A stretch of 64,000 nt of DNA, taken from positions 20,204 through 84,203 of IMG/VR virus record IMGVR_UViG_3300033150_001207; one strand, written 5' to 3'. Of the stretch, positions 1,013 to 33,900 are shown in pieces (the first letter of the stretch is position 1; every line of letters starts with the position of its first letter). The position numbers were made by a program, and so were the translations under genes. Origin of the DNA: a virus. A model generated the notes under the pieces. It searched no databases. It saw only the letters and a list, made by a program, of their open reading frames with translations, and had not been told where the DNA came from.

Positions 1013-3196
1013 ATGGCTGAGGTAATTAGATTATCACGAGAAGATATGGCAGAAAAACATGAAGAAGCAGTGCGGGAATCATATGCGGAAACCGAAAAGG
1101 CAATTGACCAGATTTCCCAAAGGGTTCAATCCCAGAGACAATTTAGTAATCTGGCAAGTTATATTCGGAGTTGCTGGAACAGTGCTCGTTCTGCCAAAAT
1201 GGATATCCAGAAAGAGTTATATGAAAGTGCTTTGCAGCGTCGGGGTGAATACACACCCCAAAAGTTAAACGAGATAAAGCAACTTCCTGGCTCAACTGTA
1301 TTCATGAATATAACATCGGTTAAATGCCGTGCTGCCGAGGCGTGGATAGATGATTCTCTTGGACATCAAGATACTCAGATATGGGACATAAAACCGACGC
1401 CCATTCCAGACTTGCCTCCGCATATAAAAGAATACATTGAAAAGCTCGCTCAGTTTCGGGTCAGTAAAAATCCTCTTTTATTCCAAACAATCGAAAGTCA
1501 AAAAGAGTTTCAGGATTATCTCATATCGAACACTCATATAGAAATGCAGAAACAGGCAGAACTTGCCGCTGAACGTATGAGATTTAAAATTGAAGACCAA
1601 CTTATCGAAGCCAACTGGGTAGATGCACTTAAAGAAGTTATATCTGATGTTATTACATACAAAGCGGGATTTCTGAAAGGTCCAATTGTAAGACGTAAAC
1701 TCACGCTCAAATGGGAACATGATGAAAGGACTGGAACATGGAATCCTAAAATAGAACCCAGGCTGGTTGTTAATTACGAACGTATATCCCCTTTTGATAT
1801 ATATCCCGCACCTTCTGCTACCGGTATAAATACTGGATTTTTGATTGAGCACCACAGGCTAATCAGGCAGGATTTGGTAGATTTGATAGGCGTCCCCGGT
1901 TATCATACCCCAACCATCAGAAAAGTATTGAAGGAATACGGTAGCGGTGGACTCAGGGATTGGGTAAGAGTACAATCACTTAAAGAAGAAGCTGAGGGTA
2001 GAAAAGATATAGAATCCGCATCGGAAACCCCCTCTCCTGATAAAACAATAGATGCACTCGAATTCTGGGGTGATGCACCCGGTAGACTTCTTCTTGAATG
2101 GGGACTGAAAACAGATGCCATAGATGATCCTGATAAAGAATATCATATCAGTGCATGGCTGATTGGTGAATATGTCATTAAAGCCACGTTAAATCAACAT
2201 CCTACTGGAAACAAACCGTACTATAAGACTTCATTTGAGAATATACCGGGTTCGTTCTGGGGTCGAGGTGTCCCTGAAATTATGAAAGATATTCAGGCGG
2301 TCTGTAATGCAACCGCAAGAGCGCTTATCAATAATTTGAGCATATCAAGTGCTCCTCAGACGATGGTTGATGTCAATCAGCTCGCATCGGGGCAAAATAT
2401 TGAAGAAATGTATCCTTGGAAACTATGGTATATCGACACCTCTACTGCTGGATTATCTAAAAACAGAGCGATTGAGTTTTTCCAGCCTAATTCCAATGCT
2501 GACCAATTGCTCAGAGTGTATCAATACTATAAGAAAGAAGCGGATGAACATACTGGTATACCTTCTTATACGTATGGGTCGCCCGATGTTGGTGCTGGGG
2601 CCAGAACAGCGACAGGGCTTTCAATTCTTATGTCTAACGCGGCCAAAGGAATTCGTTTTGCTATATCCAATATTGATTTTAGTATAATCAGACCTTCTAT
2701 AGATAATCTATATACGTTTAATATGTTGTATGATGAAGATGCGAGTATCAAGGGTGATTTACAGGTTGTTACGAAGGGCGCTCTTAGTCTTATACAGAAG
2801 GAAACAACTGCCGTACGTCGTGTGGAAATGCTGAATACTCTGGCAACAAACCCTGTTTATTTAGAAGTTATCGGGAAGAGAGGTATCTCTAATTTACTTA
2901 GAGAAGTTATTGGCACACTTGATATGCCAACTGAGAGTATTGTACCAAGTGAACAAGACATAGAATCTCAAGATATACAAAAACAGATAATATTGCAACT
3001 GCAACAAGGATTGATGGCAATACAGCAAGGTCAGATAACACCAGATGAATTCGTAGCAACGTTAATTCAATTACTTGGTATACAAGCCCCAGAACAATCA
3101 ACTAAGGGAACGCCGCAAAAGCCAGCTACTCTGATGCCAAGCGGTGAGCGTGCAGGTGGAATTGATACGAGTTTATATGTAAAACAAAAGCAGTAA
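1013..3196 (+). CDS. Portal protein
   Basis: A 727-residue protein directly after the terminase, in the portal position. It forms the DNA entry and exit ring at one capsid vertex. The size is close to long podovirus portals of the P22 type. The N-terminal third is mostly charged and helical. The middle holds a PGSFWGRGVPEIMKDIQ segment followed by PSYTYGSPDVGAGARTATG, a pattern common in podovirus portals. The C-terminus is Gln-rich (QKQIILQLQQGLMAIQQGQ) and probably forms the helical barrel. ATG start follows AAGGATAGAGT. Assigned mainly by size, order and this pattern. Confidence 0.85.
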   Translation: MAEVIRLSREDMAEKHEEAVRESYAETEKAIDQISQRVQSQRQFSNLASYIRSCWNSARSAKMDIQKELYESALQRRGEYTPQKLNEIKQLPGSTVFMNITSVKCRAAEAWIDDSLGHQDTQIWDIKPTPIPDLPPHIKEYIEKLAQFRVSKNPLLFQTIESQKEFQDYLISNTHIEMQKQAELAAERMRFKIEDQLIEANWVDALKEVISDVITYKAGFLKGPIVRRKLTLKWEHDERTGTWNPKIEPRLVVNYERISPFDIYPAPSATGINTGFLIEHHRLIRQDLVDLIGVPGYHTPTIRKVLKEYGSGGLRDWVRVQSLKEEAEGRKDIESASETPSPDKTIDALEFWGDAPGRLLLEWGLKTDAIDDPDKEYHISAWLIGEYVIKATLNQHPTGNKPYYKTSFENIPGSFWGRGVPEIMKDIQAVCNATARALINNLSISSAPQTMVDVNQLASGQNIEEMYPWKLWYIDTSTAGLSKNRAIEFFQPNSNADQLLRVYQYYKKEADEHTGIPSYTYGSPDVGAGARTATGLSILMSNAAKGIRFAISNIDFSIIRPSIDNLYTFNMLYDEDASIKGDLQVVTKGALSLIQKETTAVRRVEMLNTLATNPVYLEVIGKRGISNLLREVIGTLDMPTESIVPSEQDIESQDIQKQIILQLQQGLMAIQQGQITPDEFVATLIQLLGIQAPEQSTKGTPQKPATLMPSGERAGGIDTSLYVKQKQ

Positions 3197-3209: not shown

Positions 3210-3479
3210 GTGAAACCGCCAGACAAAGATGTGCTTATAGCGATAGAAGGATTGAAAGCCACCAATTTTGCTCAGTTCGAGAAGATTGTCGAGTGGTTTA
3301 GAGAATCGTACGAATCTGACCTTAAAAATGCTCTCAGTCCGATTGTCAGTGATAAAGAACAACACCAAGCAGCGGGTTCGGCAAATACACTCAGTTTTAT
3401 ACTTAATGTCATAGAAAGCGCTCGTAATAGAATTGAAAGCACGAATTATATTGAGTATGTAACTTCAAAAAAAGGATAG
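3210..3479 (+). CDS. Small protein between portal and head genes
   Basis: Unrecognised 89-residue, mostly helical and charged protein that starts at GTG behind GAGAGGG, 13 bases after the portal stop. Residues 18-34 (NFAQFEKIVEWFRESYE) look amphipathic. Small proteins of this type and place occur in many podovirus head modules, but no specific function can be given. Confidence 0.7.
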   Translation: MKPPDKDVLIAIEGLKATNFAQFEKIVEWFRESYESDLKNALSPIVSDKEQHQAAGSANTLSFILNVIESARNRIESTNYIEYVTSKKG

Positions 3480-3613: not shown

Positions 3614-4000
3614 ATGGCACGTTATGAGAATTTTACAGTAACAGACCTGTATGTAGATAATATATACGGTTTACACAGCCTATCAAGCGATGTGGTTGAT
3701 TTCGGTGAAGATGCTGATGGTGTTGATGTTAAATTCTACGGTGATACGAGTGGGGTTTATGTATTATGGGATGAGTCGGCAGATTCTCTGTGCTTTAACA
3801 GCGCTGACATAACCGTTAGTAATGCACAGATTCAGTTTTCAAGCGCCGATGGTGCGCCATTTGTATTTGCTAACGACGGGTGTAGTGATTGCGCCGATAT
3901 GGCGTCAGCTGTATCAAGTACCATCAATGCGGTTGTTAAAGTCAAAGTCGGTGCTACAACCACTTATCTGGTTGGATATGACGGGTACACCGCTGCATAG
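3614..4000 (+). CDS. Putative virion decoration or fibre-related protein
   Basis: A 128-residue, beta-rich protein with a strong ribosome binding site (AGAGGAG). The central part (GVDVKFYGDTSGVYVLWDES) matches a motif often seen in phage fibre and structural proteins, where it reads 'D-V-K-F-[YF]-G-D-T-[SA]-G-x-Y-x-x-W-D'. Four Cys residues near the C-terminus (one CSDC pair) are unusual for the type. It lies between portal and the sugar island, so a surface-exposed virion role is possible. Exact function unknown. Confidence 0.6.
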   Translation: MARYENFTVTDLYVDNIYGLHSLSSDVVDFGEDADGVDVKFYGDTSGVYVLWDESADSLCFNSADITVSNAQIQFSSADGAPFVFANDGCSDCADMASAVSSTINAVVKVKVGATTTYLVGYDGYTAA

Positions 4001-4033: not shown

Positions 4034-4969
4034 ATGAAATTGAGTTACGATAACTACCTCGTTACCGGGGGTGCAGGATTTATTGGCAGCCATCTTGGCG
4101 AAGCAATAGTTAAACAGGGCAAGAAGCTAGTGATCCTTGATAACTTAATAACGGGAAAGAGAGAAAATTTAGAACCGTGGTGGGATGAACAGCTTTGTAC
4201 ATTTGTAGAAGCTGATATTAGCGACTATAATTCAATCCACCCATATTTTGATAGTGTTGATATTGTATTCCATAATGCCGCTTCCAAATGTACCGTATGC
4301 AGAAAAGCCCCAAATACTGATTTAATGGTCAATGCATGGGGTTCGTTAAATGTATTCAGAGCTTCGCAAAGTGCCGGGGTAAAGAAAGTTATTCATGCCT
4401 CCACTGGTTCTACGATGGAAGGTAATCCGAAATCATTCTATGGTGTAAGCAAGCTTGCGGCTGAAAATTACCTTGCTGTTATGCGAGAGTACCATCCCGA
4501 ATTTGTTTATTCTATATTGCGATATTACCATGTCTATGGAACTCGTCAGGATAATAGCGACGAAGGCGGCGTGATACCTATATTTATACGCAATGTTCTC
4601 AATAACGAACCTATTGTTATATTTGGCGACGGTAAACAGGTTAGGCATTTTACTACCGTCGAAGATGTTGTGAAAGCCAATTTATATGTATCCGAGGTAG
4701 ATGAATTTAGCTGGTATCCAGAATCGCCGCTTACTGTAGTATCAGATGTAAAGATTAGTATTTTAGATTTAGCACATTTAATATGTGAATTGATGGGTAA
4801 GCCAGATCATGAGATTATATTCAGACCAGAAAAACATGGTGATGTAAAAAACTTTGAATTTGTCAGAAGCTATAATCTTGATGAATTGGTACGGTTCAAC
4901 AATGACCTCGAAGGCGAGCTTAAAAAAGTGATAAACTGGTATAGAGAAAAATACAAATCAAGGCGATAA
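4034..4969 (+). CDS. NAD-dependent sugar epimerase/dehydratase (SDR family)
   Basis: A 311-residue extended short-chain dehydrogenase/reductase. Residues 11-20 give the Rossmann dinucleotide motif TGGAGFIGSH. The catalytic Tyr-x-x-x-Lys is Y136-GVS-K140. Other family patterns are VFHNAA, VYGTRQDNSDEGGVIPIFI and GDGKQVRHFTTVEDV. Such enzymes convert nucleotide sugars, for example UDP-glucose/galactose epimerases or dTDP-glucose dehydratases; the substrate cannot be read from sequence. It is the first of four sugar-related genes (to 8234) in the virion operon, so it probably makes the sugar used by the two glycosyltransferases downstream. RBS AGGGGA. Confidence 0.9.
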   Translation: MKLSYDNYLVTGGAGFIGSHLGEAIVKQGKKLVILDNLITGKRENLEPWWDEQLCTFVEADISDYNSIHPYFDSVDIVFHNAASKCTVCRKAPNTDLMVNAWGSLNVFRASQSAGVKKVIHASTGSTMEGNPKSFYGVSKLAAENYLAVMREYHPEFVYSILRYYHVYGTRQDNSDEGGVIPIFIRNVLNNEPIVIFGDGKQVRHFTTVEDVVKANLYVSEVDEFSWYPESPLTVVSDVKISILDLAHLICELMGKPDHEIIFRPEKHGDVKNFEFVRSYNLDELVRFNNDLEGELKKVINWYREKYKSRR

Positions 4970-4991
4970 AAAAACAATAGCGGGAAAAAGA

Positions 4992-6161
4992 ATGTCCGAC
5001 TTTTACTGGCGTAATAAAGTCTTCAAGAGCGAACTTGGAAAATCCGCATGGGTATATAAAATTATACCAAAAGAATTAACCGTGAGGAAAACCATTGAGC
5101 CTGGACTCATAGAACCGCTCACTGAACATTATTTAAAAACACCGTTTTATGAAGTCAATATTGTTCCATACCATGAAGCACAAACGCAAGAAGTGGCTGA
5201 TTTTGTTGCCAAAGGTTGCAAATCAAAAAATATAAGTAAACAAAAGTTCTCGAAACTGTACTACGAGACATTAAAAAGAGTTATAAAAGAGAACTGGGAA
5301 TCGGATAAGTTTCATGTGCTATTACAGTCATCTGGGTATGATTCACGTCTTATCTCCATGGCAATCAAAGACAATCATAAAGAACTTGGGGATAGATGGC
5401 TCGGTGATATAATAATAGTTGAGTCTGGTAGTGAATTCAAGCTATTTAAAAAAATAATGAAACATATGGATTGGAAGCCTTATCAGTATACGGTATATAA
5501 CAACGGTGATAATCCAGATTTGAACATAAATGAATATTACTCTGATAATTTCGATTTCAAAAAAGCATGGAAAAGATTGAATGGATACTCAAGCTATCCG
5601 ATGAATCAGTATGATTTGATTGTTGACTGGTTGTACGATACCAACATAATACCAGAAAACAGAGAGTATCAGGGTTGGTCTGGTTATGGTTCAAACGAGA
5701 CAACATTAGCAATTGCATGGAATATGGGTATTCCATGGTATTTCAGACATTATTATTATCACGGGTTATCGCATTTTCCGAGAGAGAACTGGGTATTTCC
5801 GTACTTGCATTTTGATATGCTGGATTTATTACAAACTTATGGGCAGAATTACGCAAAAGAAACATTTAGCAAAAGGGCTGGAATACCAGAATTGGTGCTT
5901 AATGAATTATTTCCTGAATTGCAAAAGATACCCAAAATGTATCTTGAAGATTTAGTGAACGCTGGATATAGGACAATTTCGGACAGCCTATTGGAACAGG
6001 TTAGCAAAGATTACTTTGCATCGTGGTATGGGAAAAACGTAAACCCGAATGTCAAACCACAGAAACAGATTGATTATTTATCATGGTGGGTTTGCTGGAG
6101 CATGGCGAGTTTTTGTGAGTATTTATTGGAAAACAATTACAACATATTAATAGGACAATAA
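4992..6161 (+). CDS. PP-loop-like protein, asparagine synthase-related
   Basis: A 389-residue protein. VLLQSSGYDSRLISMAI (about residues 109-125, core SSGYDSR at 113-119) resembles the SGGxDS pyrophosphate loop of asparagine synthase and related ATP pyrophosphatases that activate a carboxyl or sugar substrate. There is no N-terminal glutaminase Cys, so it would be an ammonia-dependent or partner-dependent amidotransferase-like enzyme, if active. The second Gly of SGG is replaced by Tyr. The C-terminal half is rich in Trp and Tyr. It sits between an epimerase and two glycosyltransferases, which suggests amide or amino modification of a sugar. The call rests on one motif plus context. Confidence 0.55.
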   Translation: MSDFYWRNKVFKSELGKSAWVYKIIPKELTVRKTIEPGLIEPLTEHYLKTPFYEVNIVPYHEAQTQEVADFVAKGCKSKNISKQKFSKLYYETLKRVIKENWESDKFHVLLQSSGYDSRLISMAIKDNHKELGDRWLGDIIIVESGSEFKLFKKIMKHMDWKPYQYTVYNNGDNPDLNINEYYSDNFDFKKAWKRLNGYSSYPMNQYDLIVDWLYDTNIIPENREYQGWSGYGSNETTLAIAWNMGIPWYFRHYYYHGLSHFPRENWVFPYLHFDMLDLLQTYGQNYAKETFSKRAGIPELVLNELFPELQKIPKMYLEDLVNAGYRTISDSLLEQVSKDYFASWYGKNVNPNVKPQKQIDYLSWWVCWSMASFCEYLLENNYNILIGQ

Positions 6162-6176
6162 CGCAGGGGAAAAATT

Positions 6177-7169
6177 ATGTTTGATGTATTAGCACTCTGT
6201 CAATTCGATTGGGCAAACACAGCTTATAAGTTTTGCCAGTGCTTACAAACACTGGGTATTAACGTAATCGGGTATAAGGGGCAACCTCATGAATTTAATT
6301 ATGTCAATCAGTTGCCTATTCATCTGGAACTTAATAAAGGTATAATTGGCAATAAACATCCGCTTGTCGTATTCGCACCCGGCATGAAAGGGCTTGTTGA
6401 AAAGGCCAAAGTTGTACATTTCTTTGCAAGTACATTTATTGAAACGGGTGTTGATTTATCAAATAAGAAAATAATTGCACAACATGGCGGTACAACTTAC
6501 AGGCTTGATCCAAAAGCAAGTAACGAGGTGTTCAATCCGATGGTTACTGCTACAATAATACAGTACCCAACGTTACTTAACAAGGGCGCAAAGAATGAAC
6601 ACTTAATTTATTATCCAGTTGATACCAATTTCATACAGCCAGATTTTGAACGCAAAGGCAAAAGTAAACTCATAGTGGGACATTTTCCGAGTACATGCGA
6701 TTCAAAAGGTACTGAAACCATTGTGAATGTAATGGACAAATTGAAGGACAAATTCGAGTATATAGGTGTACGCAAAGATATTCGCATCGATTGGTTGAAC
6801 AATCTCGAAAGGGTAAACAAATGCGACATATTAATAGAAACAATTAAGCCAGAGTTGATGGGAAAAGAATTTGGAAGCTGGGGAAATGCCTGCCTGGAAG
6901 CTGCCGCTCTCGGTAAAATAGTGATAACCAATGATAATTATCAAGATATATATAAACGGGAATATGGCAATTGGTTCGAGCCTATGATAGCCAATGACGG
7001 TGAACAACTCGAACAAAGATTACTCGAATTGTATGATTATATGGATAAAGAAATATTCCATAAGAAACAAGCATCACGGGAATGGGTAGTACAATGCCAT
7101 TCAATATCTGTTACTGCCGAACGCCTGTGGGATAAAGCTTATCAATATCTAAACATCGGGAGAAAATAA
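6177..7169 (+). CDS. Glycosyltransferase, GT4-like (first of two)
   Basis: A 330-residue GT-B fold candidate. The N-terminal half has AQHGGTTYRL, an acceptor-side segment. The C-terminal half has VGHFPSTCDSKGTETIV, the usual donor-domain opening, then GSWGNACLEAAALGKIVITND, in which the Glu and following Ala/Gly fit the donor-binding helix of family 4 glycosyltransferases. It would transfer a nucleotide sugar to an acceptor. The next gene starts immediately after its stop codon, so the two are translated together. RBS AGGGGAAAA. Confidence 0.75.
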   Translation: MFDVLALCQFDWANTAYKFCQCLQTLGINVIGYKGQPHEFNYVNQLPIHLELNKGIIGNKHPLVVFAPGMKGLVEKAKVVHFFASTFIETGVDLSNKKIIAQHGGTTYRLDPKASNEVFNPMVTATIIQYPTLLNKGAKNEHLIYYPVDTNFIQPDFERKGKSKLIVGHFPSTCDSKGTETIVNVMDKLKDKFEYIGVRKDIRIDWLNNLERVNKCDILIETIKPELMGKEFGSWGNACLEAAALGKIVITNDNYQDIYKREYGNWFEPMIANDGEQLEQRLLELYDYMDKEIFHKKQASREWVVQCHSISVTAERLWDKAYQYLNIGRK

Positions 7170-8234
7170 ATGAATGTAAAACCGAAAGTAACAATGATTA
7201 GCTTACATTGCTGCATAAGAGTTGTCAAAGAAGCAATAGCACTAAAGAATCATGGGTATGAGGTGCACGGAATACTCGGTGCATTGGCAATGCGTGATGT
7301 ATTCGATACAATCACCATATTTACGGATGGGGATAGTTTACAAAAAGCGGTTAAAGATTCAAATGCTGATATATTTCATGTGCATAATGAACCAGATTGG
7401 ATTGTACCATTAATAAAATACCCAGCGAAGAAAAAACCTATTATCTGGGATATGCACGACCCTGAACATTTACGTGATAACAATCCGAAACCAGAAGAAA
7501 CGACATCTGTCATGCTTGCGGATGGTATTGTACACGTAAGTGAACCATGTATGAAAGCACTACATAAAGCGTATGAATATAATAAACCAGAATGCGTAAT
7601 ACATTCAATGGTAAATGAAAAGTTTATGCCGCCAGATAATGCAATTATTCCAGACCCAAGTTTTAAATCAATTGTATATGAAGGGGGTATAGACGATACC
7701 GAAAAACCTGTTATAATCGGCGAAGACCCATCGGGTTCAGATAAAACGCTAGCCAGAGTAAATTTAAGATATATTATTGATATAGTAAAAGCTTTTTGTG
7801 TTTCTGGGTACAATTTTACAATTCTTTGTGCAAAGAATCTTAAAAATAATAATTATCAGAATGCAGGCGCTTTTGTTGTAAAACCAGTGCCATATGGTCA
7901 GATGTTGTTAGGTTTGCGTTCTCATGGATTAGGACTTAACGGTTCCCCATACAATTCAAGACTGTTGCAATATGCTTCACCGAATAAATTATGGGAATAT
8001 ATAAGTCAGGGTGTTGTGCCAGTGTGTTTTAATACAGACGAAAGTTTCAGACTTTGTGAACAGTATGATATCGGATTAAAGTTGACTTCACTTAACAATA
8101 TAGAAAGCCAGTTGACTGAAGCGCCGCAAAAACGAAAGAATCTGCTTAAAGTAAGAAAAGAATTCACAATGGAAAGTGAAATACCGAAGCTGATGAGGCT
8201 GTACGAAAAAGTATTGAGTAATGAAAAAACATAA
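7170..8234 (+). CDS. Glycosyltransferase, GT4-like (second of two)
   Basis: A 354-residue protein. IIWDMHDPEHLR (about residues 90-101) is typical of family 4 glycosyltransferase N-terminal domains. IVYEGGID opens the donor domain, and SPNKLWEYISQGVVPVCFN near residue 270 is the donor-site helix region. It probably acts with the preceding enzyme on the same glycan or on a virion protein. Start ATG abuts the upstream TAA, and the upstream GGGAG serves as RBS. The 8.3 kb small RNA candidate is transcribed from the other strand toward the 3' end of this gene. Confidence 0.8.
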   Translation: MNVKPKVTMISLHCCIRVVKEAIALKNHGYEVHGILGALAMRDVFDTITIFTDGDSLQKAVKDSNADIFHVHNEPDWIVPLIKYPAKKKPIIWDMHDPEHLRDNNPKPEETTSVMLADGIVHVSEPCMKALHKAYEYNKPECVIHSMVNEKFMPPDNAIIPDPSFKSIVYEGGIDDTEKPVIIGEDPSGSDKTLARVNLRYIIDIVKAFCVSGYNFTILCAKNLKNNNYQNAGAFVVKPVPYGQMLLGLRSHGLGLNGSPYNSRLLQYASPNKLWEYISQGVVPVCFNTDESFRLCEQYDIGLKLTSLNNIESQLTEAPQKRKNLLKVRKEFTMESEIPKLMRLYEKVLSNEKT

Positions 8235-8242
8235 TCCTTATA

Positions 8243-8326
8243 GTAAAACCACCCATTCCGTACGTTACGTACTCACCAATTGGGTGGGGAATAGGTGGCG
8301 TCCTGTGTGTTAGATAAAACCTAACG
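8243..8326 (-). ncRNA. Candidate small RNA with two hairpins and a U-tract
   Basis: Read on the minus strand, downstream of the promoter at 8333-8361. Hairpin 1 is GTTAG...CTAAC (8309-8325). Hairpin 2 pairs CCACCTATTCC with GGAATGGGTGG (arms 8288-8298 and 8249-8259), with one G-U pair, and is followed by UUUU, which makes it look like an intrinsic terminator. Inner repeats around GTACG-TAA-CGTAC can form a second small stem. A related sequence with the same promoter lies in the opposite orientation at 38022-38130. Hairpin 1 is kept by compensating changes (GTTAG/CTAAC here, GTTGG/CCAAC there). Expression is inferred. Confidence 0.55.
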
Positions 8327-8332
8327 AAAGTA

Positions 8333-8361
8333 AATATACACAATGCAAAGCAATAAGTCAA
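8333..8361 (-). promoter_or_regulatory. Sigma70-like promoter for the 8.3 kb small RNA
   Basis: On the minus strand: TTGACT (8356-8361), 17-base spacer, TATATT (8333-8338). The -10 is followed by a TACTTTCGTT stretch that is nearly shared with the 38 kb promoter (ACTTTCGTT after its TATATT). The conserved spacing and downstream sequence support a real promoter that points leftward, against the late genes. Confidence 0.6.
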
Positions 8362-8414
8362 TAAAAAATAATATGTTTGTTTTATTTAATTTTTATTAAC
8401 ACAAGGAGAAGAAA

Positions 8415-8780
8415 ATGTTACTAACAGCGAAAGAGCGTATTATTCTGTTATCTATTTTACCGAACGAAAACACCAACTATATCACACTCAAAGTTGTGCA
8501 TGATTTAAAAATGAATGCAGCTCTCAGTGATGAGGAATTTGATAAAGTAGAGACTAATGAACAGAGTACAAGAATTGAAGGTTTGAATAAAATTCCAGAT
8601 AAGGAAATCAAGATAGGAAATAAAGCGAAAGAAATAGTTCTTAACAGTCTTGTCAAATTAGATAAAGCGAATAAACTGACATTTGATCATTTCACGTTAT
8701 GTGAAAAATTTAATCTGGGTAAAAAATTAGAAGAATTAAAAAGAAAGGAAAATGAAGATCGAAATAACAGTAAGAAATAA
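8415..8780 (+). CDS. Small helical protein before the scaffold gene
   Basis: Unrecognised 121-residue Lys/Glu-rich protein. Strong RBS (AAGGAGAAGAAA then ATG). Residues 10-45 resemble a small domain seen in phage proteins upstream of scaffolds (LLSILPNENTNYITLK...), and the C-terminus is a charged helix. Its place suggests a capsid assembly accessory role, unproved. Confidence 0.65.
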   Translation: MLLTAKERIILLSILPNENTNYITLKVVHDLKMNAALSDEEFDKVETNEQSTRIEGLNKIPDKEIKIGNKAKEIVLNSLVKLDKANKLTFDHFTLCEKFNLGKKLEELKRKENEDRNNSKK

Positions 8781-8873: not shown

Positions 8874-10079
8874 ATGAAAGATCCACGGGAAGAACAGGCA
8901 GAAGAAGCGGTAAAAAGAGGGGAAGAAATTCAAGCTAAACTTTATAATGTTAGCAAAGAGGAAACTGTCCCTGTAGAAGCTTCTAAATCTCAGGAAATTA
9001 AACCTGATGAGAAAAAGCCAGAAAAGCAAGCCGAGAAGTCTGGCAAAAAGAGTAAAGAGGGCATTGAGCCTACTCAGGAATCCAAATCTGGTAGTAAAAA
9101 ACCAGAGGAAGAAACCTGGAAAAGCAAGTTTGATACTTTGCAGGGTAAATATAATGCCGAGATTGCTAAACTCAAAGCCAGAGTAGAGGAAGCTGAAAAG
9201 AGAGCAAGTGAGTGGAGAGATACTGTTGCTGAGATAGGGAAGTATAAAGCTACCGAAGCAAAGCAACGGGAAAAACCAGAAAAAGTTCCAGAAATTAAAG
9301 CACCAAAGATTGATTCTGTTGTTGCGCAACCGCAAAAGCACGTTACTGATGAGGACCTAGAAGATTACGGTCCTGAGCAGTATAATTATGTCAAGCGTGT
9401 TGCTCAAGAGGTTGTCGATAACGCATTGTTCAATTTCAATAAGGCTATTGGCGATGTTATTGAGAAACGGTTCAATCAAATCGAGGGAAGAATTGCTCCT
9501 GTCGCTGATGATTTAAAAACCGTTAAAGCGACACAGGTAAAATCAAGGGAAGATAAATTCTGGGAGGATATAGATAGATTGTGTCCTGATTTACAGCAAT
9601 ATAACTATGATCCTGCTTTTAACGATTGGCTTGACCAACCGTCTGTTGAGGCTGGTTTTAAACGTAGAGAGTTGCTCAATGATGCTTTCTACAATCTTGA
9701 CGCTAACCGTGTTGCTCGACTTTTCAATGCATTTTTAAATAGTTCGCAAGTAAATAAACAGGTTACTACTCAGCCTGAAAGTGTTGCGGTGAGCGAACCT
9801 GTTACAGAGCAATCGGTAGCAGTTCCATCTGAGCCAGAGACACCAGTTGCTGGCAAACAAGTACCTACTGTAGACATTGAGGACTTGATTTCCCCGGGTG
9901 TGTCAAAAGCTGGGCAGTCAGCAATAGCTGTGGCAGAAAGCGATACCCCGCCTTTTAGTATAAAAACGTGGGAAAAAGCTAAGTCAGATTGGAATAATAA
10001 GAGAATATCTCTCGAAGACTACGAAAAGATTCATGCCGAGTTCGACGCCGCATTAAGGGAAGGAAGGGTAGTACCATAA
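8874..10079 (+). CDS. Scaffold / capsid assembly protein
   Basis: A 401-residue acidic and Lys-rich protein directly before the major capsid gene, the classic scaffold position. The N-terminal 130 residues are low-complexity (E, K, P, A) with a coiled coil near WKSKFDTLQGKYNAEIAKLKA. The C-terminus ends in a small helical segment (SWEKA-like TWEKAKSDWNNKRISLEDYEK) found at the end of many phage scaffolds, which binds the capsid protein. It directs procapsid assembly and is then released or degraded; no protease gene was seen nearby. RBS AAAGGAG. Confidence 0.8.
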   Translation: MKDPREEQAEEAVKRGEEIQAKLYNVSKEETVPVEASKSQEIKPDEKKPEKQAEKSGKKSKEGIEPTQESKSGSKKPEEETWKSKFDTLQGKYNAEIAKLKARVEEAEKRASEWRDTVAEIGKYKATEAKQREKPEKVPEIKAPKIDSVVAQPQKHVTDEDLEDYGPEQYNYVKRVAQEVVDNALFNFNKAIGDVIEKRFNQIEGRIAPVADDLKTVKATQVKSREDKFWEDIDRLCPDLQQYNYDPAFNDWLDQPSVEAGFKRRELLNDAFYNLDANRVARLFNAFLNSSQVNKQVTTQPESVAVSEPVTEQSVAVPSEPETPVAGKQVPTVDIEDLISPGVSKAGQSAIAVAESDTPPFSIKTWEKAKSDWNNKRISLEDYEKIHAEFDAALREGRVVP

Positions 10080-10098: not shown

Positions 10099-10734
10099 AT
10101 GGCTGTTTACAACCGAGCTCAGGGTATGCCAAATTATTCCGCAGATAGCGGTGGAAACTTTATTCCTGAACTGTGGGCGCCCCGTATGCAAATCAGGTTT
10201 TATAAAGCCAATGTATTCAGAGCTATTTCCAATAATAGTTATGAAGGAGAGATTAAGCAATTTGGCGACACGGTTCATATAAACACATATCCTGACATCG
10301 ACATTTTCGATTATGTTAAAGGTCAAAAACTTCCTATTCAAACACCAAGCTCCACTCCTTCAAGTCTTACTATCGATAAGGGTAAGGCTTTCAACTTTTT
10401 AGTTGATGATGTGGACAAGGTACAGTCAAGACCCGATCTCACAAAAGAGTTCGGTGATACTGCCGGGTTACAATTGGCAGAGGAAATAGACAAGGATGTT
10501 ATTCAAGGTGTTTATTCCGATGCTGATTCCGACAATGTTGGTGCGACTGCTGGTGCAGAATCAAATTCCTATGATATGGGTGCTGCGTCTGCATACGAAA
10601 GTCTCACCAAGACCACAATTCTTGACTATATCGTTGACATGGGTTCTATTTTGGATGAACAGAACGTTCCTAATGATGGCAAGCGCTGGGTTGTTTTTAC
10701 ACCCTGGGCTGCTGGACTCATTAGAAAATCGGAT
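10099..10734 (+). CDS. Major capsid protein, exon 1 (212 codons)
   Basis: N-terminal two thirds of the major capsid protein. Recognisable segments are FIPELWAPRMQIRFYKANVF near the N-terminus, FNFLVDDVDKVQSRPDL in the middle, and WVVFTPWAAGLIRKSD at the exon end, a pattern of many phage capsid proteins. The reading frame runs on 12 codons into intron sequence and stops, so without splicing the protein would lack its last 100 residues. The exon ends at GAT, and GGAT pairs with the intron's GTCC to give the U-G pair expected at a group I 5' splice site. RBS GAGGTTTAATA. Confidence 0.9.
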
Positions 10735-11661
10735 TCAAAAAGGGTCCCCTGCGTTAGTAATATCGCAGTGTAAATCAGGTGAATTGCTGGAATACTGAAA
10801 TGTAAATCAGCAGCCAAGCCCTTAAATGGGAAGGTCCAACGACTAATTCCTGAGTCTTAAAAAGTCTAAACTTTTATGTCGGAGACTTAAAATGAACAAA
10901 TATGATAGGGGAGTATTAATTGGTATGGCTCTTGGGGATGGATATATAAAAGTTAAAAGTGATGCTGATAGAATCAAAAAAAGAAACCCTTCGGCACAAA
11001 TGTCTTTTAGTCATAGCATAAAACAAAAAGAATATGCTCAATACAAAGTAGATAGATTGAATAAAATATTTGGTGGAAATGCTACTTTGAGAACTGGGGT
11101 ATATAAAAGTACAAACGGCGAAAGCTATAAAATATGTTATGCAAATAAGAGTAATCCATATTTTAAAGTGTTAAGAAGAATGCTTTATAAAAATGGTCAA
11201 AAATATATAACAAGGCATGTACTTAATATGTTAAATCCAGATGGTATTGCAATATGGTTTATGGATGATGGTAGCCGTAGGGCAAACAAGAATCTTGATG
11301 GTAAAATATCGTCAGTAGCTTTAACAATAAGTACGTGTTGTTCACGAGAAGAAGTTGACTCTATAATTGACTATTTTAATGAAATATATGGAATAGGGTT
11401 TAAACCAGCATTACACAAAAGAACTAGTTTATGGTCTGTAAGAGCCAATACATATGACTCGAAAATGTTGGCAAATCTTATAATGCCATATATGATTGAT
11501 TCTATGAAATACAAACTATCATTTGTTACAAAACTCAGGGAACACGAGCTCCTGAAGTCCAATAATCAGTTATATATTGTTGGATTATGAGATAGTCTAA
11601 ACTTACGGAAATAGAAACCGTAAGAAGTTTAGGATAAAGAGCCTAAACGGTAATAAAATTG
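10735..11661 (+). mobile_element. Group I self-splicing intron in the major capsid gene (927 bases)
   Basis: P1 is exon GGAT|TC paired with intron GGGTCC across an AAAAA loop, with a U-G pair at the cut. The core follows the group I plan: GAATTGCTGGAA and AATCAGCAGCCAAGC (P4/P6 region), CAACGACTA (P7 5' strand), then GAGATAGTC (P7 3' strand) after the endonuclease gene. P9-type hairpins TTACGG/CCGTAA and GTTTAGG/CCTAAAC follow. The last intron base is G11661, as expected for the terminal guanosine. The endonuclease gene sits in the loop between P7 5' and P7 3'. Joining 10734 to 11662 restores frame (codons GAT-CTG). Confidence 0.88.
10892..11590 (+). CDS. LAGLIDADG homing endonuclease inside the intron
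   Basis: A 232-residue protein with two LAGLIDADG-type motifs: VLIGMALGDGYIK (about residues 8-20) and IAIWFMDDGSRRA (about residue 115-127). Such enzymes cut intron-less alleles so that the intron is copied into them by repair. Start ATG follows a GGAG site. The gene is AT-rich compared with the flanking exons, a usual mark of a mobile endonuclease gene. Confidence 0.92.
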   Translation: MNKYDRGVLIGMALGDGYIKVKSDADRIKKRNPSAQMSFSHSIKQKEYAQYKVDRLNKIFGGNATLRTGVYKSTNGESYKICYANKSNPYFKVLRRMLYKNGQKYITRHVLNMLNPDGIAIWFMDDGSRRANKNLDGKISSVALTISTCCSREEVDSIIDYFNEIYGIGFKPALHKRTSLWSVRANTYDSKMLANLIMPYMIDSMKYKLSFVTKLREHELLKSNNQLYIVGL

Positions 11662-11964
11662 CTGAAAGATGTTTCCATGACTGGTGATACTGTATCACCG
11701 CTTCGTAATGGTAGAATCGGTATGATTAATAACATGAACATTCATGTTTCCAATAATGTACTTTCTACCACCGACGGTGGAACCACTGTCTGGTATATGC
11801 TTTTTGGTCATCCATTAGCGATTTCATTCGCAGAACAACTTGTCCAGACCCGTGCAATTCAGGCACCCGACACATTCGGATATTACATCAGTGGTCTCCA
11901 TGTTTATGGATACGACGTTGTTAAACCCGAAGCTTTAGGGTATCTGTATGCGGCGAAAGGCTAA
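11662..11964 (+). CDS. Major capsid protein, exon 2 (100 codons plus stop)
   Basis: C-terminal part of the capsid protein, starting LKDVSMTGDTVSPLRNG and ending LGYLYAAKG. GRIGMINNMNIHVSNNV and FAEQLVQTRAIQAPDTFGYYISGLHVYG are typical of phage capsid C-terminal domains. A TTG at 11659 could make it look like a separate gene, but it lacks a good ribosome binding site and the upstream exon needs it. Spliced product length would be 312 residues. Confidence 0.88.
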   Translation: MKDVSMTGDTVSPLRNGRIGMINNMNIHVSNNVLSTTDGGTTVWYMLFGHPLAISFAEQLVQTRAIQAPDTFGYYISGLHVYGYDVVKPEALGYLYAAKG

Positions 11965-27921: not shown

Positions 27922-30900
27922 TTGCCAATCATTGATGTAAAAGATATTCCTGATGATATTGTAATTCGTGAAAGAGAAACTGTATCTACTAGAGAACCTG
28001 TAGCTATTCCTTCAGGTGGCAGGCTAGTGTCGCCAGAGGATATTCCTGAAGATATAGTAATACATGAAAGGGAAATTGCACCTTCTGCAAAACCTGTAAA
28101 GATAGAAGAACCTATTCGTGAGATTCCAGAATCAATACCGGCCCGAATAGAACCTCGTAAAAGGCTTGGGAAAATAACACCGGTAGAACCAGTGTCAACC
28201 GCTGAAGAAAAGGCACGAAAACCTTTCGTTCCTGTTCCTGCGCCGATTGGATATAAACCACCTTCTATTGAAACAGAAAAGCCCGAACTGTTTGTACCGG
28301 CAGCAGAGAAACAAATTAAAAAATTACCCACTACTGAGCCAGAAGAAATACCATCCTCTTTGAAGCCCGCAATAGCTGAACCGGTGTCTCTCTACGTCAA
28401 ACCAAGATTCAAGCCCGAACCAGAGGAACAAAAATTCAGGGATATAATAAAATCTCACTGGAAAATAGGTTCTCTGGTTATAAAAAGAGGAGAGTTGGGT
28501 GCAAATGCAAGAGATACTGGTCTCTCAGTCGAAGAAACTCTAAAACAGGCTAGAGAAATTGACAAACTGGCAAAATCATACAGAAAAAAAATGCCCGAAT
28601 TTAGCATAAAGAAACCCACAACCTGGTTACCCTCTCTCGTAGCGCAAACAACCGAATTAATACCATATATGGGCAGAGGACAAGTTGAGGGTATGAAAAT
28701 GGGTATTGCTACTGGTGTTGGATTTGGCACGATGACTGCGCTCTGGGGTCAAGCCGGTCCGCAGGTATTAACCCCTGAAGAAGTATTAACCATTCCAGGG
28801 GCGATGGCTGTAGGCGGAACTGCCGGATGGGTTCTGGGCTCACTTAAAAATTGTATGGATATTGAGGGTGGTAACTTATATATAGACTTACTCGAACGTG
28901 GTGTAAAACCAAAAGTAGCAAAACAGCTTTCATTGGCGGGAGGGCTTGCAATAGGTGCTATTGAAGTTGCACAGATAGGTAGAATAGCTAGAAACTTACC
29001 AGGATTCGAGTTATTCTTTAGAAAAGGTGCTAAAAAACTAATTGCAAGCGATACATTCAAGAACATACTTAAAATCTCTGCAAAAGAATACGCAAAAGAT
29101 GTTGGCTATGAAATAGGAGAAGAAGAAGCACAGGAAATTGCATCAATGGCATCCGAATTTGTTGGCAGTTCTATATCTCCGGGCGCAGAAAAACTTACAT
29201 TTGGTGAAGCAAAGGATAGATTGAAAGGAGTAATTACACAGTCTGCTCTTGGATTTACGGGACTGTTGTTACCCGGACAGCTTTATAAAACAATTGGTAG
29301 AACCAGAGCTTTGAATATAAAGAAAAGTCTTGACGCTCTTGTGGAAGAAAAAACACCTAAACCGCCCGAAGTTACCAAACCACCGTCTGTCGTTCCTGAA
29401 GTAGAGAAAATCGTTCCCAGGCCGCCTGAAGCAGTCAAAGAAGTATGGGAAATGACAAAAGAAGAATTGAAAAATCTCGAAATTCCAGTTCCTGAAGGCG
29501 GCGCAAGCAAATCCCCTAAAACTGTTTTTAGCTGGAAACCAGGTGAATACGAAACGTTACATGATGTGAGCCAGTCAGAAGATGAATTTAGATTTAACGA
29601 AATACTTGGCAAAGGGTGGGAAGGTAAAGCATCATTACACTTAAAACCGAAGATAAAAAACAATGAGCCCATAACTGTTTACAGAGCGAGTGATTACGAG
29701 ATTATACCGGGTTCTTACGTTTCCGAAAGTATCGAATATGCAAAAAAACATGGCGAGAATATACTTGATGGTAAATACAAAATACATTCACTGGAAGTGA
29801 AACCGAGCGAACTGTTAGTATACGGAGACCCTCATGAATTTATTTATGTACCAGAATCCATCGAAGTTGGGCATAAACGCATAATAGAAAAAGCTCTATC
29901 TGAAGGCAAACCAGTTCCTAAAGAGGTATTGGAAGATTACCCCGAACTACAGGAAAAAGCAAAAGAATATGAAAAACCAGAGAAACTCGAAATATCTGTT
30001 TTAGATCCCAAGCCTGGCGATATTACGGGTTCAAAAGATATGTTGCCAAAACTTATAAAACTTAGAGACAAAGGCTCTGAAATGGTTAAACCAGATATCG
30101 TAAACAAACTCGAAAAATTCTGGAAAGAAAACCCCGAAGCTGAGTACGGTATATGGCAAGAAGATTTATCAATAAAACCTGTAACCAAAGAAACACTCGA
30201 AAAACCGCCTGAAATCACTGAACCCACCATTACTAAAGTAACCAAAGCTATTCCCGAAAAAGCCCCAGCTATCACTGGTAGAAAATCCACGGCAAAAACA
30301 GAGGCGGGTACAGAAATAGAATTTGACTATGATATTTACGACATTAACGACATTATTGCTTCCCACGATACAAACCTGCGAGCCAATCCACTATATCCAG
30401 CGGAAAAACAACCCCGTGGCAGAGCAAGAATGGCATCCGAAGCTCAAATTAACAAAATTACCCGTGAATTAGCACCTGAACGTCTTGGTGAAAATCCACT
30501 TGTGTCAGAAGGTGCTCCAATTGTCGACAAATCCGCCATTGTAGAATCAGGTAATGCGAGAATTATTGCACTACAGAGACTTTATGAATCAAAAAGTGAT
30601 AAAGCAAAAGAATATAAACAGTTTTTAATAGATAATGCTGAAAAATTCGGGTTGGATGTCGATAAGATTAGGGACATTGCCAATCCTGTACTTGTAAGAA
30701 GAAGATTATCAGATGTTGACATAGATAAGTTTATAAGAGAAGCAAACGTACCTACTGTTGCCGCTATGAGCGCTACCGAACAGGCGTTATCTGACGCAAA
30801 AATGCTTTCCGACGAAACTCTTGCAATGTTCGATGTGGGCGAAACAGGTGAAATAGATACAGCGGCAAATAGAGATTTTGTGCGTAGATTTTTCAAGGAA

Positions 30901-33900
30901 ATCGCTACCGAGACTGAGTATGGTAGATACTTTACAAAAGAGGGGCTAACCTCACAGGAAGGTATAAATAGAATAAGAAACGCCATCTTTGCCAAAGCTT
31001 ACGAAAATCCCGAAATAGTTGAGAAATTGTCTGAAAGTACAGACGTTAATATAAGAAATATAGTAAATGCCATGGTCAGTATAGCACCACGACTTTCTAT
31101 ATTGAAAAACGAAATTAAAAAAGGCAACAGACATAAATACGACATTACGAAAGATATTGCTCAAGCTTCCGAAAAGTTATCATTTCTAAGGAATCAGAAT
31201 AAAACAGTAGATGAGTATATAAGACAGACGGCATTGTTTGACGATGAAGTAACACCGCTTGCAAAGGACATACTCAAAGTATTTGATAAGTATAAAAGAA
31301 GTCCCAGGAAAATAAGACAAATATTTAACAATTATATAAATCTGGTTGATAAAGTCGGCAATCCGAAGCAGGCGAATTTGTTTGAAGAATATAACAAACC
31401 CAAACCCGCTGAGCTATTACAGGAAGCAATAAATGAAATGGAGGATAGTTATGTTCCACTTGATATTTTCAAAGCCGAGGCTGAGCGTAGTAAAGAAATT
31501 AGAGCAGTTACGAGGGAAAAGGGAATCACCAAAATCAAGCCCGAAAAAGAAATTGGGAAAAAAATCAGCATAACCCGCCCATTTGCATACGATAGTGATA
31601 GTACAGTTAATCAGGGCTGGTTCGCAATCAGACCAGTTGAAGACTTTGACGAAATGGGCATGGGTGAATCTAAATTCAAGACCAGACATGAAGTCAATGG
31701 ACTCAAAGAAAAAGGTATAAGTTTTGTCGTTGGCACCGTTAAGGGCAAAGAACAAATTCAAAGACTCAGCTTTAATAAAGATATATGGACTGAAAAAGCT
31801 GCAAAAGAATGGTGGAATAAAAACTTTGATAGAATTCAAGACATAGCTTCAACTGGTATAAAACCGCCCGCTAAAGTTCCTGAAGCGGGAATTGAAAAAA
31901 TAGTCGAACCGAAACTATCAGCCAAAATACCAGAAGATATAAACGACGTTGTTTTTGACAAGTTTAAAGCATGGCCTAAGAAAATAAAAAAGGTTGGTGA
32001 AGATTACTGGACTGAAGTCATGGCTGCGGCAGAAGAACTGTCAACGCCATATCGTTATAAATCTTTGCGACAAACCGTAGTTGGCAAATTTGAAAAAGAA
32101 AAGGGTATTAAACTTCAGGACGTTACGCAAGCACTAACCGCCACACATGAATTAGGGCATAATATAGACTGGCTTTTGAACAACAAAACTTTTCCAGGAT
32201 CAATCAAAGCTCGTTTTCCAGATTCGACTATAGGTGAAATGGGATTGAGAAATGAATTAAAAGAGGTTTCTAAAGTTGTCAGACCTGAACTCTGGGAAGC
32301 GTCTTTATCAGAGAAAAACATTAAATCACAACTCAGCCGTCATACAGAACTAATGGCTGATTTTATAACACATTATATTCTTGACCCAGAAAATGTTAAA
32401 GAGCTTGCACCCGATGTAACAGCGTTGTTTGAAGCAAAACTGGCGAACAAACCCGAATTATTTGATATTATCTCAAGACTACAGCAAAACCGTTATACGG
32501 GACCTGAAAGGCCAGCTGTTGCTGAACACATTGTAAAAGCCCTTCGTTTACCAGAAAAACATGAGCCTCTAAAATTGACTGTCGATCTTTCAGATAAAGA
32601 TTATGTAAAAACAGTAGAAAGTCTTGGGGTTCAAACATCACGGAATTATAAAGCCCTAATTCAGGAAGCCAACCTACAGGCAAAAAGAATTGACGAACTT
32701 GTGCCAGATAAAGATAGACAAACGGATTTGGTCGTTATTGTTGAAAAGGGAAGTAAAAATCCGTGGACTGGAGAAACAAGAGAAGAAATCCTCAAAAGAG
32801 GTATAAATGATAAAGAAAGAAAAGCAATTAACCTCTACAGGGCATATCAGGAACTTGCAAGACAAACGGTTAATGAATATTTAAAGGATTCGGGCGAATC
32901 GGAATATATCAAGTTTATTGAAGATTATTTTATCCACGCTTACGAAACGCCTATGACAGAAAAATATAAAAACGCAATAAACAAATGGGCTAAAAGCTCA
33001 CCACAGGCGAAAAAAAGAATCCTGCCTGACCTTGCAACAGCTGTTGAATTGGAATTAAAGCCAAGAGTCAAAACCCTAAGTGATGGTTTAAAACTCTGGT
33101 CTGGCATAAATTACAGAGTTGCTACAAATAAGGCTTTTCTGGAAAAACTGCCCCAGGTTCTCAATGAAGATGGTATGAGTGTTATTCAAAAACCAAAAGA
33201 TTTCCCAGCATGGCCAACGGTTGACTACTGGCCTATCCGACGGACATATAGATTACCGTTAAAGGGTAGAGGTGTTTTGCTATTTCAGGGACAGGTTGCA
33301 GTTGATCCGAAAGTAAAACCGTTTATCGATGCCCTCTTCGGACAGCGCTTTTTCAGTACACCAGCGCGTATTCTTGAAGGATTTAATGCTGTTACCAAGG
33401 CATGTGAATTAACTCTATTATCACTTTTCCATCATCAAGCAGAGTTTTTTAGTGCAGTCGGGGCTGCTGGATGGAGAGCAATGCCTTTTATTGGTGGTTA
33501 TTGGGGTAAGAAAGCCGAGCTCTTTGGCAGAACAAAAAAATTCGGTATTATACCAGCGCACATAAAATTCCTGGAAGCTGGTAAAGAACTCGAAAAAGTT
33601 CCCGAATTTATGGATGACTATTTGAAACACGGGGGACAAGTCGGATATATAACAACCGAGGGTATTAACGTAATGGAACGTATGCTACTCGGTATTGAAG
33701 AATTTCTAAAAAATGTCATAGAAGAAAAACCAATTTCTGGTAAAGCGGTATGGGCACCATATATTCCATTAAAGGCAATCAGAAAAATTTACTCGTGGAA
33801 TCAACATTTATTGTGGGATAACACCCAGAGAGCAAAATTATTAACATATTATGAAATCGTAAAAGACGGTCTGGCAAACAGCGATTTACCAGTTAAGAAA

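Follow-up and report, generated by a model that had tools for sequence, protein, structure and literature searches.

Sugar islands within the head operon are already known from the Cluster O mycobacteriophages. The stretch between portal and protease in Corndog encodes an O-methyltransferase, two glycosyltransferases and a GlcNAc-transferase; the products of all four genes were detected in infected cells, and the passages cited here suggest modification of the capsid (PMC4351075). JangDynasty is likewise described with sugar genes between portal and protease (PMC5968724). In the cited text, Che8 gp110 and Corndog gp38 are stated to be essential for capsid glycosylation (PMC12363180, citing Freeman et al. 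2023), and the cited part of another report places a glycan on the Che8 and Rita capsids (PMC11256854). On the other hand, in the 'Gratiaviridae', according to the cited passage, a transferase between the portal and capsid genes was read as modifying the host capsule (PMC8008677).

We analysed a comparable island in an uncultivated podovirus-like phage. The window, the whole stretch of 64,000 nucleotides examined, covers positions 20204-84203 of a virus record 84,203 bases long. When its first 12 kb was searched at the DNA level against 50,697 phage records, nothing matched. The portal finds 36 phage records by tblastn, all of them distant (<60% identity), including Rhizobium, Pelagibacter and Roseobacter phages. 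For comparison, we collected 166 loci of relatives by portal and capsid searches, namely 5 phage records and 161 viral-contig loci (5, then the best 80 of 187, of which 76 were new, and then the best 80 of at least 586); many of the 166 are fragments, and near-duplicates were kept. On the plus strand of the window, the portal is followed by the genes at 3210 and 3614, the four-gene island, the gene at 8415, a gene in the scaffold position (8874) and the capsid gene:

1013-3196, plus strand: portal protein gene, the left landmark (PF23899 SU10_portal, 6.4e-15; phrog_332, 1e-54)
3210-3479, plus strand: small gene, conserved just behind the portal of many relatives (95 ORFs in the relatives set by iterated HMM)
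3614-4000, plus strand: small head-module protein with the N-terminal anchor MARYENFTVTDLYV (16 ORFs in 15 loci, a count that includes 7 ORFs used as hand-picked seeds)
4034-4969, plus strand: extended SDR, NAD-dependent nucleotide-sugar epimerase/dehydratase (PF01370, 1.3e-43; phrog_540, 6e-52)
4992-6161, plus strand: solo PP-loop protein resembling the AsnB synthetase domain, orphan (hhalign 35.0; three collinear motifs)
6177-7169, plus strand: putative GT-B-type glycosyltransferase, from its C-terminal sugar-nucleotide-binding region (GT4 profile 32.1)
7170-8234, plus strand: GT4-like glycosyltransferase (PF13439, 29.9 bits against a cut-off of 28.5, marginal)
8235-8414, no strand: AT-rich non-coding gap of 180 bp, holding the 19-nt element GTGTTAGATAAAACCTAAC
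8415-8780, plus strand: small gene, conserved on the right-hand side of the insertion site (5 of 166 loci: L003, itself a seed, L107, L122, L132 and L138)
8874-10079, plus strand: scaffold-position gene ahead of the one for the major capsid protein, serving as the right landmark (phrog_13678 of unknown function, 3.9e-20)

The preliminary description had placed four tandem sugar genes between portal and scaffold. Their coordinates, order and strand (that of the head genes) were correct, and the island does lie inside this interval, but not directly next to its ends: the small genes at 3210-3479 and 3614-4000 precede it, and that at 8415-8780 follows. The gene in the scaffold position also matches phrog_8865, head scaffolding, at 0.028, and has 132 ORFs in the relatives set.

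The layout is like that of Cluster O (Corndog, JangDynasty), in that tandem sugar-transfer genes stand inside the portal-capsid block. In the cited passages, glycosylated virion proteins are reported for Corndog, Che8 and Myrna. Corndog is a siphovirus, whereas the portal here is podovirus-like, and neither an epimerase nor an AsnB-like gene, both present in the island, figures beside the O-methyltransferase in the cited Corndog text. The 'Gratiaviridae' transferase occupies the same kind of position, as far as the cited passage describes it, but has a HipA-like kinase and an ATPase as neighbours instead. Three things are new: a podovirus-like phage carries the island, its genes form a new combination (one epimerase, one solo AsnB-like protein and two GT-B-type proteins that have diverged), and the 4992 protein is an orphan. 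In a literature search that was thin on subscription papers, we recognised no report of a sugar island in a head operon with an AsnB-like gene. With this locus, such islands are found beyond the Cluster O mycobacteriophages, in an environmental lineage of podovirus-like type, and gain an enzyme resembling a PP-loop ligase, which the Cluster O islands lack as the cited text presents them.

The successive island ORFs are separated by 22, 15 and 0 bases. A purine-rich, ribosome-binding-like stretch is found at the start of each, and their codon usage is in line with that of other phage genes (z -1.7 to +1.4), which indicates that they are real genes and not chance ORFs. A recent acquisition from the host was considered; codon usage gives it no support, despite an island GC content of 36-39% (most neighbouring head genes are at about 40-44%, and the 8415 gene is at 30%). 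Judging from strand and spacing, the island would belong to the late transcript, and the 180-bp non-coding gap follows it. Promoter and terminator scans did no better than shuffles (43 vs 40.1 and 8 vs 7.3, respectively), and the RNA fold of the gap is unexceptional (z -1.2). The record holds two exact copies of the element GTGTTAGATAAAACCTAAC, each between genes and behind a G-rich stretch, at 8307-8325 of the window (plus strand) and at L012:6014-6032 (minus strand). The element may serve the phage as a promoter or a processing signal.

By its sequence, the 4034 protein is a clear NAD-dependent nucleotide-sugar epimerase, in line with the epimerase call of the preliminary description. It scores 149.6 bits with PF01370 (cut-off 20.9) and carries GGAGFIG (Rossmann GxxGxxG) and YGVSK (YxxxK); phrog_540 is labelled 'nucleotide-sugar epimerase', and the nearest PDB chain is 4zrm_A, 'UDP-glucose 4-epimerase' (1.6e-37). 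Among the 25 of 68 matches listed, no NCBIfam equivalog that would assign an exact substrate exceeds its cut-off. Distant relatives (<60% identity) occur in 61 phage records at E 1e-20, and none was found in viral contigs by a scan that needs short exact or degenerate peptide matches.

The two transferase-like proteins appear to be diverged members of the GT-B/GT4 type, 6177 by its C-terminal motif. The C-terminal region of 6177 exceeds its shuffles with an in-house GT4 profile (32.1; shuffle maximum 23.0, n=60), and eight other non-GT window proteins reach at most 16.8 with that profile. Its best Pfam match, PF13692, stays below the cut-off (12.9 vs 27 bits), and its E-x7-E region gives the sole PF00534 signal of the record (10.4 bits, E 0.0175). 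In 7170, SPNKLWEYISQG aligns with the E-x7-E region; the in-house profile gave this protein 14.8, below the shuffle maximum of 22.2, so its assignment rests on Pfam. The GT4-like calls made earlier are borne out in these two ways, for 7170 by PF13439 and for 6177 by the profile. Neither protein has a tblastn match at E 0.01 in the 50,697 phage records or a homologue in viral contigs in the short-peptide scan, and the AlphaFold2 single-sequence model of 6177 has a pLDDT of 31.9, too low for use.

The 4992 protein matches no Pfam family at E 1 and no PDB sequence at E 10, and its best phrog match is weak (phrog_20373, E 0.0026). The AsnB domain family PF00733 is not matched anywhere in the record at E 10, and the control genomes were positive in 14 of 14 cases. 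On the other hand, hhalign with a profile of 8 AsnB-type proteins gave 35.0 against a shuffle maximum of 25.4 (n=60), and nine other window proteins reached at most 23.5 with the same profile. SSGYDS, SGYGSNE and FPYLH of 4992 stand in register with the AsnB motifs of three phage AsnB-type proteins, and their positions were also compared with E. coli AsnB. The sequence thus suggests a resemblance to the PP-loop synthetase domain of asparagine synthetase B, with family support that is weak but above shuffles; the PP-loop-like call made earlier stands on this profile and the three collinear motifs, and the family search that had been proposed came back empty for Pfam and PDB sequences but not for the profile. 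In motif 2, Tyr and Asn replace the Glu and Asp of AsnB (SGYGSNE vs SGEGSDE), which makes ordinary asparagine-synthetase chemistry unlikely. Beta-lactam synthetase probably has Tyr at the place of this Glu as well.

The protein begins MSDFYW and has no N-terminal glutaminase half with Cys2, just as the preliminary description had observed; moreover, neither a class I glutaminase (PF00117) nor GATase_6 (PF13522) was found in the record as a partner. We found no homologue in phages, plasmids, viral contigs or genome contigs, the contig scans relying on short exact or degenerate peptide matches that distant relatives may escape. The AlphaFold2 single-sequence model is of low confidence (pLDDT 39.1). 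The orphan is a compact candidate for new amide chemistry, although an amide or amino-sugar step of this protein is a guess. An AsnB-family protein of Synechococcus phage S-SCSM1 shares the SSGYDS loop and lies among transferases and methyltransferases; unlike 4992, it retains a glutaminase-like N-terminal half and SGSGSDE, and within the stretch examined it lies outside any head operon. A pairwise BLAST between the two proteins was not significant (E 1.0). Another PP-loop protein, of the PAPS-reductase family, is encoded at L012:12564-13343 (minus strand; PF01507, 1.6e-27), and several DNA methyltransferases lie elsewhere in the record. In phage Motura (L099), an AsnB-family gene sits between QueC and tRNA-guanine transglycosylase, a position that suggests an amidation step on the deazaguanine base.

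Comparison with phages lacking the island, which the preliminary description had proposed, points to an insertion in the head module. The portal-to-scaffold distance has a median of 587.5 bases in 114 measurable loci and is 5,678 in the window; the sole longer distance (5,734, L175) holds structural-looking ORFs and no sugar genes. Between the 3614-anchor gene and the 8415 gene there are 82 bases in L003, 680 in L122, 473 in L132 and 252 in L138, against 4,415 in the window. The island was thus either inserted between the 3614 and 8415 genes in this lineage or lost from the others. In relatives, the slot is mostly filled by structural-looking or small genes; it accepts other cargo as well, in L003 a gene that reads as HNH-like and in L023 one that reads as TnpB-like.

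For SDR, GT2, GT4 and AsnB-type proteins, HMMs were trained on sequences from E. coli, cyanophages, L058 and the window. The SDR, GT4 and GT2 models recovered annotated or neighbouring cyanophage genes outside the training sets, and the only AsnB-type control gene itself belonged to its training set. In the relatives set, SDR matched 1 of 166 loci (L058) and GT2 matched 2 (L058 and L067), L058 proteins being present in two of the training sets and the L058 matches being confirmed by Pfam; GT4 and AsnB-type matched 0 of 166 each. L058 (2-4736) carries UDP-sugar dehydrogenase, SDR, GT2 and GT-D genes, and L067 (4816-7945) carries GT2 and methyltransferase genes, in both cases immediately upstream of the terminase and on the same strand as the head genes; both also have an unassigned protein with a DxD-like motif there. 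These sugar genes differ from the island, which lies in the portal-capsid block, in their position and families, and an AsnB-like gene was not found among them.

Could the island products decorate the phage particle itself? We consider the glycosylation of a virion protein the best explanation and give it about an even chance. The island would then be a four-gene moron in the head module that makes a modified sugar and transfers it to a virion protein. The epimerase would turn a host NDP-hexose into the required NDP-sugar; the AsnB-like 4992 protein would adenylate a carboxylate, whether that of a uronic acid, of an amino acid or of a protein side chain, and form an amide from it with an amine or ammonia; and the two GT-B enzymes would act in succession, ahead of assembly or while it proceeds, on a protein of the head or its decoration. 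An epimerase, a PP-loop protein and two transferases would fit the cytoplasmic assembly and transfer of a short modified sugar. Because the island lies within the head block, the likeliest target would be a head protein made simultaneously, and by position the capsid protein, the 3614 protein and the 12005 protein are candidate acceptors. That the virion glycan contains an amide bond made by the glutaminase-free AsnB-like ligase (so that a head protein would bear an amidated or aminoacylated sugar) is a distinctly unlikely refinement; in the same literature search, we recognised no report of such chemistry. If virion glycosylation recurs in unrelated phages, it would be a general strategy (shielding, stability, adsorption) and no mycobacterial oddity.

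The strongest argument for virion glycosylation is by analogy, namely the Corndog precedent with the same layout. It is also favoured by the co-direction of the island with the portal-to-capsid block that encloses it, by the mostly structural-looking or small genes of the slot in relatives and by the sugar enzymes beside the terminase in L058 and L067. On the other hand, no acceptor was found. Capsid exon 2 shares its last residue with the capsid protein of the island-free relative L003/L107, and the alignment of the 12005 protein with L003/L107 runs up to, or almost up to, its end; neither carries an added tail. Ser/Thr content singles out none of the structural proteins. The failure of 7170 with the in-house GT4 profile weakens the case further, and position cannot separate a virion target from a host target, given the host-capsule reading in the cited 'Gratiaviridae' passage. 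The earlier proposal that these enzymes act on virion components or the host surface is therefore upheld as to layout (Corndog, JangDynasty) but not as to an acceptor; probably the phage decorates its own particles, or the host surface, with an unusual sugar.

The main rival places the target on the host: late in infection, the enzymes would modify a surface glycan or the precursor of a polysaccharide, which would save released phages from loss to debris or shut out competing ones. The 'Gratiaviridae' precedent between portal and MCP, as far as the cited passage goes, the resemblance of the 4034 epimerase to LPS/capsule enzymes, and the epimerase/transferase clusters of cyanophages P-SSM2, S-SKS1, ACG-2014f and S-SCSM1, which lie off the head genes in the stretches examined, all speak for it. 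LPS seroconversion systems are membrane-bound, whereas hydropathy gave no membrane segment in the four island proteins (maximum KD19 1.54), and no polymerase, flippase or membrane-bound transferase family is among the 25 of 33 Pfam families listed from a scan of 88 ORFs as one set that left out the 2,327-aa ORF at 27922-34905. These absences, together with that of a sugar-1-P nucleotidyltransferase (PF00483) from the record, favour a virion target, and we regard a host-surface role as somewhat unlikely. An amino-sugar aminotransferase (PF01041) was not found in the record either.

The island could instead make a small molecule (a modified nucleotide, an amino sugar or a peptide-like compound) with host metabolism or defence as its target, its site in the head operon being merely a tolerated insertion. 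The unrelated HNH-like and TnpB-like inserts at the same slot would agree with this, as would the amides, lactams and nitriles that AsnB-like enzymes yield according to the cited text (PMC13060819); but an epimerase together with two transferase-like genes would indicate a glycan, and we hold this explanation to be improbable. Less probable still is DNA hypermodification, in which the transferases would glycosylate a modified base that the PP-loop protein helps make, as perhaps in Motura, where the AsnB-like gene lies within a 7-deazaguanine cluster. Phage GT genes often act on DNA, according to the cited part of the Thanatos paper, and the record has its several DNA methyltransferases; yet the island is in the head operon, away from the DNA genes, and thymidylate-synthase/hydroxymethylase (PF00303) and TGT (PF01702) are absent from the 84-kb, possibly incomplete, record.

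The full-length 3614 protein has no match in the phages collection, and its anchor MARYENFTVTDLYV is common to variable proteins at the same slot in relatives. A short N-terminal M[AGR]xREx...V/I anchor occurs on variable proteins, sometimes in tandem, in the post-portal slot of L003, L004, L079, L122, L132, L175 and others; these anchored proteins look like exchangeable head decorations. Further downstream, the major capsid gene is split (10099-11964), with exon 1 extending to about 10740 and exon 2 starting from about 11659. A group I intron signal at 10725-10959 scores 37.3 bits, short of the gathering score of 50, and a LAGLIDADG endonuclease ORF lies between the capsid exons at 10892-11590.
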